DNA from: Gemmatimonadaceae bacterium
Lineage (GTDB): Bacteria > Gemmatimonadota > Gemmatimonadetes > Gemmatimonadales > Gemmatimonadaceae
Reading direction: 5' to 3'
DNA: 64,000 nucleotides
Assembly: GCA_020846935.1 (NCBI GenBank)
Contig: JADLCY010000006.1
Location: 62,001 to 126,000 of the forward strand
Part shown: piece after piece, positions 24,651 to 26,059 of the stretch
How positions within the stretch are numbered: position 1 is the stretch's first letter
Layout: each line of letters starts with the position of its first letter
The notes under the pieces: generated by a model
Seen by the model: only the letters and a program-made list of their open reading frames with translations
Told to the model about the DNA's origin: nothing
Database searches by the model: none
Translations under genes and position numbers: made by a program

Positions 24651-24679
24651 TTGCGTACAGTAACCGGCATATGTAGAAT
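24651..24679 (+). promoter_or_regulatory. promoter/operator of the padR-permease pair
   Basis: TTGCGT (24651-24656), a 17-base spacer and TAGAAT (24674-24679) make a good sigma70-like promoter. Start of transcription would fall at about 24686-24687, exactly on the GTG of the PadR gene. An inverted repeat TACA-N12-TGTA (24656-24675) covers the spacer and could be the PadR operator. Confidence 0.55.
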
Positions 24680-24686
24680 AACGACC

Positions 24687-24989
24687 GTGCAGCGACTCAC
24701 CCGCACGATGACGCGCGCGCTTGCCGCATTCCTTGAGGCCCCGAGGGGCTGGCGGTACGGCTACGACCTCATGAAGGTCGCCGACCTCTCGTCAGGCACG
24801 CTGTACCCGCTCCTGGCGCGCCTGACCGAAGACGGATGGCTCGAGTCGCGATGGGAAGAGTCCGAGTTCCCGGGCAAGCCGCCGCGACAGCTCTACCGGC
24901 TCACAGCGACCGGCCGGGCACAGGCACGCCGGGCGCTGGAACGGGCGCACGCATCCTGGTTGCCGGCTCCCTCAGCGCGCGAGACCTGA
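24687..24989 (+). CDS. PadR-family transcriptional regulator
   Basis: About 100 residues with the PadR winged-helix core: 'GWRYGYDLMKVADLSSGTLY' continuing 'PLLARLTEDGWLESRW', then 'RQLYRLTATGRAQARRALE'. The GTG at 24687 is chosen because the upstream promoter places the transcript start there (leaderless); ATG 24708 is the alternative. It ends 2 bases before the membrane protein gene, so it very likely controls its own operon. Related PadR regulators respond to small molecules or envelope stress. Confidence 0.85.
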   Translation: MQRLTRTMTRALAAFLEAPRGWRYGYDLMKVADLSSGTLYPLLARLTEDGWLESRWEESEFPGKPPRQLYRLTATGRAQARRALERAHASWLPAPSARET

Positions 24990-24991
24990 GC

Positions 24992-26059
24992 ATGAACGCA
25001 TTCACTCCGATGGAGCGTGCGACGCGCCGCCTGGCCGGGCTGGTGGACCCTCGCCACGAGGATCTCGTTCGAGGGATGCTCGCCGAGTCGGCCGCGATTC
25101 CCGATGAGGCCGAACGGCGGCGCTTTCGCGTGGGCGTCCTGTTCACCGTCTTGCGACTGGCGGTAAGCGCGCAGGCGACCGCTCTGCTGGTCGATATCGG
25201 CGTGTTCGCCCCGGAGGTGAGCGGCGTCGCGCGGGGCGGGGTGAACCCGACCCTTGCACCGAGGGAGCTTCTGAGGCGGCACGTGAGTCCGTTCGTTGCG
25301 TCGCTGGGTGTGCTCACGGCGCTCCAGCTCACGAACTACGCGACGCGCGCCGTACCTCAGCTGGGTGGCGGCGTGGCGGGGCCCGGCGCGATGGCCAGAC
25401 TGCTCATGCTCTCGGTGCCGTTCATCCTGGCGATGACCCTCCCGATGGGCGTCTACCTGGCGGTCGCATGGGTGTTCACGCGACTCGGTGACACAGAGCC
25501 TGGTGCTGACGCCACACGAGGCCGTGGCCGACTGCGACGCCTGCTCGCTCCAGTGCTTTCTGCGGCGGCTGCGCTCTCGCTGCTGGCGCTCATCTCCAAC
25601 ACGCAGGTCCTTCCCTACGCGAACCACCAGCTTCGTCTTGCGATGTCGCCGCGGCCATCCACAGCCCCGACGGCGCAGTTCAAAAGTGATCGCGAGATGA
25701 CCGTCGGCGAGCTGCGCGCGGCGGCCCGTGACGCGCGCGCATCAGTACACCCGAGCGCGCGCGCCATGGCGCCCGCGTATGAGGTGGAGATTCACAAGAA
25801 GTACGCGCTGGCGGCTGCGTGCATGGTGCTGGCACTGGCAGCTGCCGCGTTCGGCGTGCGGTTCCCCGGCGCCGGCCCCGTGCGTGTGGCCGCCTCGAGC
25901 CTCGTGGTATTCGTGGGCTACTACGTGTGCCTCGTAGCCGGCGAGCAACTCGTCGATGCGCGGAGGTTGCCGCCGGCAATGGGTATGTGGTTCGCGAACG
26001 TGGTGCTGCTCCTTGTTGCGGCCACCGTGCTCAGGCCGTCGCGATCGCCATCCGCGTGA
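24992..26059 (+). CDS. LptF/LptG-like permease lacking the periplasmic jellyroll domain
   Basis: 355 residues from ATG 24992. Six or seven membrane helices lie near residues 45-67, 98-115, 135-160, 185-203, 270-290, 297-318 and 330-347. LptF/G family marks are seen: 'AWVFTRLGDTEPGADA' with 'RLLAPVL' before helix 4, 'EMTVGELRAA' then 'EVEIHKKYALAAAC' before the C-terminal helices, and 'LPPAMGMWFANVVLLL' at the end. In normal LptF/G a ~120-residue periplasmic beta-jellyroll follows 'LPYANHQLRLAM'. Here only a ~55-residue linker remains, so it cannot form the usual lipopolysaccharide slide. Residues 1-44 are a soluble helical extension. It is paired with PadR; substrate unknown. Confidence 0.7.
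   Translation: MNAFTPMERATRRLAGLVDPRHEDLVRGMLAESAAIPDEAERRRFRVGVLFTVLRLAVSAQATALLVDIGVFAPEVSGVARGGVNPTLAPRELLRRHVSPFVASLGVLTALQLTNYATRAVPQLGGGVAGPGAMARLLMLSVPFILAMTLPMGVYLAVAWVFTRLGDTEPGADATRGRGRLRRLLAPVLSAAAALSLLALISNTQVLPYANHQLRLAMSPRPSTAPTAQFKSDREMTVGELRAAARDARASVHPSARAMAPAYEVEIHKKYALAAACMVLALAAAAFGVRFPGAGPVRVAASSLVVFVGYYVCLVAGEQLVDARRLPPAMGMWFANVVLLLVAATVLRPSRSPSA

Follow-up and report, generated by a model that had tools for sequence, protein, structure and literature searches.

A gene at positions 24992..26059 (+ strand) of the 64,000-nucleotide stretch of Gemmatimonadaceae DNA analyzed here (referred to as the window) encodes a derived paralog of LptF, a 355-aa protein with an N-terminal helical domain and a six-TM LptF/G core without the periplasmic jellyroll. 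As judged from the sequence, the membrane core is kept and both the motor interface and the delivery domain are gone, which suggests the conversion of an exporter into a membrane sensor or an ATP-independent effector. At a probability of roughly 0.45, we favor a self-regulated pair of a PadR and a membrane protein, in which the latter is a duplicated and repurposed LptF that would serve as sensor or effector together with an autorepressing PadR. We know of no earlier description of an LptF-derived core devoid of both jellyroll and coupling helix.

The LptF/LptG-type core and its missing segments

The gene product had been described in a first-pass annotation of the sequence as an LptF/LptG-like permease without the jellyroll, and profile searches and structure prediction bear this out. 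Pfam LptF_LptG (PF03739) matched the protein with a whole-protein E of 2.7e-37 in two stretches, covering profile positions 3-127 and 236-352; positions 128-235, which correspond to the periplasmic jellyroll, were unmatched. The first stretch represents the first half of the core with TM1-TM3 (residues 90-218; 25259..25645, + strand; modelled helices 90-127, 131-168 and 178-218), the second the pre-TM4 segment together with TM4-TM6 (residues 230-348; 25679..26035, + strand), and the two abut at the jellyroll deletion point (residues 219-229; 25646..25678, + strand). The jellyroll columns are gapped in all 16 aligned family members. An AF2 model of the window permease, based on the 16-member alignment (pLDDT 84.3), contained no beta strands. 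In this model TM3 extends to residue 218 and TM4 begins at residue 260, so that 41 residues connect them instead of the approximately 55 originally estimated. The segment preceding TM4 is kept (residues 229-241; KSDREMTVGEL), and the same segment follows the jellyroll in the canonical LptF of the same genome. A jellyroll concealed by a frameshift was considered and rejected, because the two matched halves are only about 30 nt apart and the 15 other members agree.

The predicted fold is that of LptG rather than an unrelated one. In VIA-align, the modelled permease was superimposed on LptG (6mjp_G) with a Z score of 24.9 and an rmsd of 2.8 over 259 residues; many other LptF/LptG chains scored at Z 16-25, the next rows were far lower (MATE, Z 9), and Foldseek agreed on the LptF/G fold. 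The equivalog models for the two subunits of LptB2FG gave scores well below their cut-offs (TIGR04407, 91.5 of 230 bits; TIGR04408, 50.1 of 240 bits). About two dozen residues are invariant in the 16-member alignment, among them P208, N211, R234, E266, K269, G317, E318, W333 and N336. Several residues of the LptF/G jellyroll are essential for function (PMC6744409), and with this domain absent the earlier statement that the protein cannot bridge to LptC/LptA holds.

A second segment has been lost in addition. The coupling-helix region between TM2 and TM3 (residues 167-180; 25490..25531, + strand) is degenerate and has lost its conserved glutamate and glycine. The glutamate is present in 35/35 canonical LptF sequences versus 0/16 jellyroll-less members, and the glycine eight residues further on, likewise found in 35/35 canonical LptF, is replaced or gapped in the jellyroll-less members, several of which also have a shortened loop. 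In E. coli, LptF E84 and LptG E88 are needed for affinity to LptB and for function, and they are described as strictly conserved even in distant homologs (PMC5082905). The term 'half-transporter', used in the first-pass annotation, is therefore apt with respect to the jellyroll and undersells the change, since the coupling helix that docks LptB is lost too. For this reason the window permease is probably not an ABC transporter subunit, and its sequence does not lead one to expect LPS export together with LptB.

Compared to the LptF and LptG permeases of LptB2FG (PF03739; TIGR04407, TIGR04408), the window family thus has the six-TM core in common and keeps most signature positions outside the jellyroll and the coupling helix, but it lacks the jellyroll, the coupling-helix glutamate and LptB, and bears an extra N-terminal domain and a PadR operon. 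The canonical LptF of Gemmatimonadaceae (L180 / C15:143855-145531 of the same genome) reaches about 617 aa, because a long stretch rich in Pro, Ala and Ser is inserted after the KSDREM segment, ahead of TM4; the length varies among relatives.

Distribution and origin of the jellyroll-less family

Homologs were surveyed in 148 genomes at the family level and 395 genomes at the level of the phylum Gemmatimonadota. A strong long match (E < 1e-80) was obtained in 16 of the 395 phylum-level genomes, plus fragments. Carriers of the jellyroll-less permease occur in three families of the class, and the gene is absent from most genomes; scanning contigs with patterns from close relatives yielded one further jellyroll-less member. 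The family alignment comprises 16 sequences, all from Gemmatimonadota. This survey of PadR-adjacent homologs, which had been proposed at the outset, found a PadR gene next to the permease in every member with intact upstream DNA. In ten measured members the gap between padR and the permease gene was +2 or -4 bp, and in members added later the PadR frames end at or near the permease start. A tblastn search for plasmid copies of the unit returned none.

In a tree of the core regions, all 16 members formed one clade (100/100) placed within the LptF proteins of Gemmatimonadota (90/96); the canonical LptF sequences in this tree were retrieved through matches to the window protein, and the set is thus biased to that type of LptF. 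This nested position indicates, at the level of sequence, that the jellyroll-less permeases are descendants of a duplicated LptF. Pairwise dN/dS values, which are rough as synonymous change is high in some pairs, ranged from 0.23 to 0.36 and argue for purifying selection on genes that are not decaying. A decaying LptF pseudogene, as which the loss of two functional segments might be read, can be dismissed for practical purposes given these values, intact ORFs in many genomes, the invariant residues, the conserved promoter element described below and the adjacency to PadR.

Two relatives deserve mention in their own right. One of them (L162; G089:C702) carries a second copy of the PadR-permease unit, which is truncated by the contig end and nearly identical in its first part. 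In the other (L172 5768-7198; genome G181), an apparently truncated ADOP ORF of the perm_prefix_1-like kind runs convergently into the family member, with transposase-like and integrase-like ORFs, named by eye, nearby.

The padR gene and the N-terminal prefix domains

The permease gene is preceded by padR (24687..24989, + strand), which encodes a 100-aa winged-helix regulator of the PadR family (PF03551, E 1.6e-14, above cut-off) from a GTG start. In the window, its stop codon lies 2 bp before the permease start, in agreement with the two-gene unit originally noted. The start codon, by contrast, had been placed at TTG 24651 and has to be revised: the ATG of the orthologs, which begin with MQRLTR, aligns with GTG 24687, and TTG 24651 is probably part of the -35 hexamer of a conserved promoter. 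This predicted promoter (24651..24679, + strand) would consist of a -35 element TTGCGT (24651-24656), a 17-nt spacer and a -10 element TAGAAT (24674-24679). The six members of subgroup A (see below) have the element CTTG...ATATGTAGAATAA conserved upstream of padR, with ATATGTAGAATAA being near-exact and one member (L096) differing, and the element is unique in the whole genome of the window with up to 3 mismatches allowed. The assignment is based on this conservation, as a generic sigma-70 scan reported no site at the element upstream of padR. With only 7 nt between TAGAAT and the start codon, the padR mRNA is possibly leaderless. Upstream of padR in subgroup B, AGTAT/ATACT repeats occur, often 13 bp apart (20 versus 1.8 expected from mononucleotide shuffles), as expected for the operator of a repressor.

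The jellyroll-less family falls into two subgroups, A and B, which differ in their N-terminal domains and in their PadRs. The window permease belongs to subgroup A, and its extra N-terminus, already recognized in the first reading of the sequence, amounts to about 68 residues with three predicted helices (residues 1-68; 24992..25195, + strand; modelled helices 6-15, 20-34 and 39-68). This prefix had no Pfam match, and its profile (A3) found matches only within the jellyroll-less LptF family and no ADOP counterpart, ADOPs being PadR-linked orphan permeases of the MacB/FtsX type (prefix e.g. NF038403 perm_prefix_1; PadR relatives of TIGR03433). Two candidate identities were considered and found no support in profile comparisons. 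One common N-terminal domain in both subgroups was not supported by hhalign, in which the admittedly shallow profiles of the A and B prefixes showed no similarity. Nor did profile comparisons of either prefix with perm_prefix_1 and Pfam HAAS detect any similarity by which the window N-terminus could be assigned to one of these; Pfam HAAS (PF22564/DUF1700 type, GxP kink) matched neither A2 or A3 members nor anything in the window's own genome. The modelled three-helix shape of the subgroup A prefix resembles HAAS, which is only suggestive.

The prefix of subgroup B occurs in ADOPs as well. Its profile matched in 20/60 relatives, mostly at the N-termini of frames of 880-1050 residues; those inspected adjoin PadR genes, and the two checked for domain content were both permeases with MacB_PCD and FtsX, that is, of the ADOP kind. 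In the core of the window permease, only LptF_LptG was found and MacB_PCD/FtsX were absent. The PadRs of subgroup B group with the PadR of one ADOP (100/99), whose prefix is also the best match to that of subgroup B; the L096 entry of this PadR tree is a second, unrelated PadR of that locus and is to be disregarded. Seven of the nine PadR genes in the genome of the window directly precede ADOP-type permeases (one each on C7, C4, C12, C2 and C14, two on C11), six of which bear perm_prefix_1 and one the subgroup B prefix; another of the nine precedes the LptF-like permease of the window. The simplest reading of these sequences is that PadR and prefix form a transferable pair with an exchangeable membrane core.

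Related systems and possible functions

As subgroup B shares both its PadR and its type of N-terminal domain with ADOP permeases, the arrangement of PadR, prefix and permease is of a known kind. The window unit resembles the ADOPs in the padR gene directly upstream and the prefix domain on the permease, with prefix type and PadR group being common to subgroup B; it differs in its LptF-derived core in place of MacB_PCD and FtsX, and in a prefix type that profile searches found only in the family. A similar comparison applies to HAAS-PadR dyads, in which a PadR is paired with a multi-TM core, of the MacB/FtsX type and others, that carries a helical domain at its N-terminus (Ravi et al. 2024, PMC11237479). 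The stand-alone PadR beside an N-terminal three-helix domain on a multi-TM protein is alike in both, whereas Pfam HAAS was undetected in the window family and LptF/G is absent from the cores named in the passages of that paper considered here. The paper mentions 'uncharacterized 6TM' cores among the dyads, so that an LptF-like core may have been sighted earlier without being named. The view that no described system has this layout was hence too strong, given these dyads and the seven PadR-permease pairs of this general kind in the same genome.

Two PadR repressors of Listeria act mainly on their own operons, and the LstR operon includes a non-canonical FtsW/RodA homolog, Lmo0421, which is unable to replace FtsW or RodA (Hauf et al. 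2019, PMC6624303). Here, too, a PadR is combined with a non-canonical paralog of an essential membrane protein of the envelope; core (FtsW/RodA), Gram-positive host and an extra ECF sigma factor in the operon are different. The open-licence literature yielded nothing relevant on LptF together with PadR.

For layouts of this type, a membrane sensor has been proposed to bind and release PadR through its helical N-terminal domain (PMC11237479, PMC12419801). By analogy, the window PadR would repress its own operon, and the LptF-derived core, which may have kept a shape that can hold lipids or amphiphiles coming from the periplasmic side, would sense a membrane-active compound, LPS or one of its precursors. 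Once occupied, the core would alter the N-terminal domain such that PadR is captured or released, and derepression would yield additional permease, which would act as an ATP-independent buffer, scramblase or sensor in the membrane. The signal, the contact between PadR and prefix and the autorepression are inferred. Of the roles named in the first-pass annotation (lipid flippase, regulator of the Lpt complex, stress-sensing membrane protein), we favor the last, and a regulator of the Lpt complex appears less likely. The absence of profile similarity of the A and B prefixes to each other, to perm_prefix_1 and to HAAS, and the lack of an ADOP counterpart of the subgroup A pair in our profile searches, count against this model.

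The strongest competitor, which we hold to be possible and less probable than the self-regulated pair, is a permease that works without ATP as a lipid scramblase, flippase or drug exporter and is expressed under the control of an inducer-binding PadR of the LmrR type, with the N-terminal domain serving only for membrane anchoring or assembly. The best-studied PadR case is indeed the control of a transporter by direct ligand binding (PMC6624303), and direct binding of a small molecule by PadR, which would then control a simple effector, would explain the operon equally well. The core, including several buried positions, is conserved among the jellyroll-less members, in line with such an activity; a weak fold resemblance to MATE and MurJ, which ranked below the LptF/G chains, probably just reflects a common helical arrangement. 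However, the PadR is minimal at 100 aa, and a different N-terminal domain goes along with a different type of PadR in the two subgroups, which suggests that they are partners. We know of no LptF/G core for which transport in the absence of LptB has been described.

It is unlikely that the permease is a divergent half-transporter still driven by LptB or another ABC ATPase and extracting a different lipid, even though its closest relatives are LptB-dependent permeases. In addition to the loss of glutamate and glycine in all members, the shortened loops and the missing periplasmic acceptor domain, no ATPase gene adjoined the permease in any of 13 neighborhoods in a coarse motif search, and in two of the 13 an ATPase was located several kb away. 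An LptB profile search found no LptB-like ATPase gene anywhere in the 64-kb window; its sole match on contig C6, the contig of the window, lies about 97 kb away from the permease gene. The 59 ABC ATPase profile matches in the genome could in principle act from elsewhere. The genome, which has a size of 4.5 Mb, retains canonical LptF and LptG on C15 as well as LptB on C14 (351.6 bits, above cut-off).

We regard as similarly improbable that the protein is a decoy subunit which, upon relief of PadR repression, would associate with LptG or LptF and lower the activity of the house-keeping Lpt machine. Its descent from LptF could have preserved the dimer interface, and a member without coupling helix and jellyroll would make an inactive partner. 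Yet the gene occurs in few genomes (16 of 395), and subgroup B is tied to a cassette common to unrelated MacB/FtsX permeases, both of which argue for a stand-alone module.

Between 20637 and 31495 of the window, the unit is located among HPPD-like, homogentisate-dioxygenase-like, M19 dipeptidase, Na+/H+ exchanger, enoyl-CoA hydratase and PaaA/PaaC genes. Phenolic acids are the signal of the classical PadR, and a PadR that senses an aromatic acid, together with a permease that exports it, would fit the flanking HPPD-like, HGO-like and paa genes of aromatic-compound (phenylacetate) catabolism. The paa and enoyl-CoA hydratase neighbors are, however, shared with only two genomes, both from the same genus (L006, L179), and absent from the other tested neighborhoods, making this role very improbable.

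Returning to the self-regulated pair, a more specific and rather speculative version, to which we give clearly less weight than to the general one, is that an LPS-extractor subunit became a one-gene sensor in the inner membrane, which perceives LPS or Lpt-targeting amphiphiles and signals to PadR via its N-terminal domain. This would amount to a compact PadR-based LPS stress response with interchangeable cores (LptF-like or MacB/FtsX-like) on a common PadR-prefix cassette. The layout of PadR, prefix and permease is of a known kind and close to HAAS-PadR dyads; the LptF-derived membrane core is new to us. A subunit of an essential envelope exporter has been stripped of the parts that dock the motor and deliver the substrate, yet selection maintains it in a regulatory cassette whose permease is otherwise of the MacB/FtsX type. 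As natural minimal cores, these proteins would be useful for testing LptF/G function without LptB, and they open the PadR-linked orphan permeases, which are poorly understood, to experimental tests. Should the LptF-like core sense LPS, this would be a novel mechanism by which bacteria keep track of LPS in the inner membrane.
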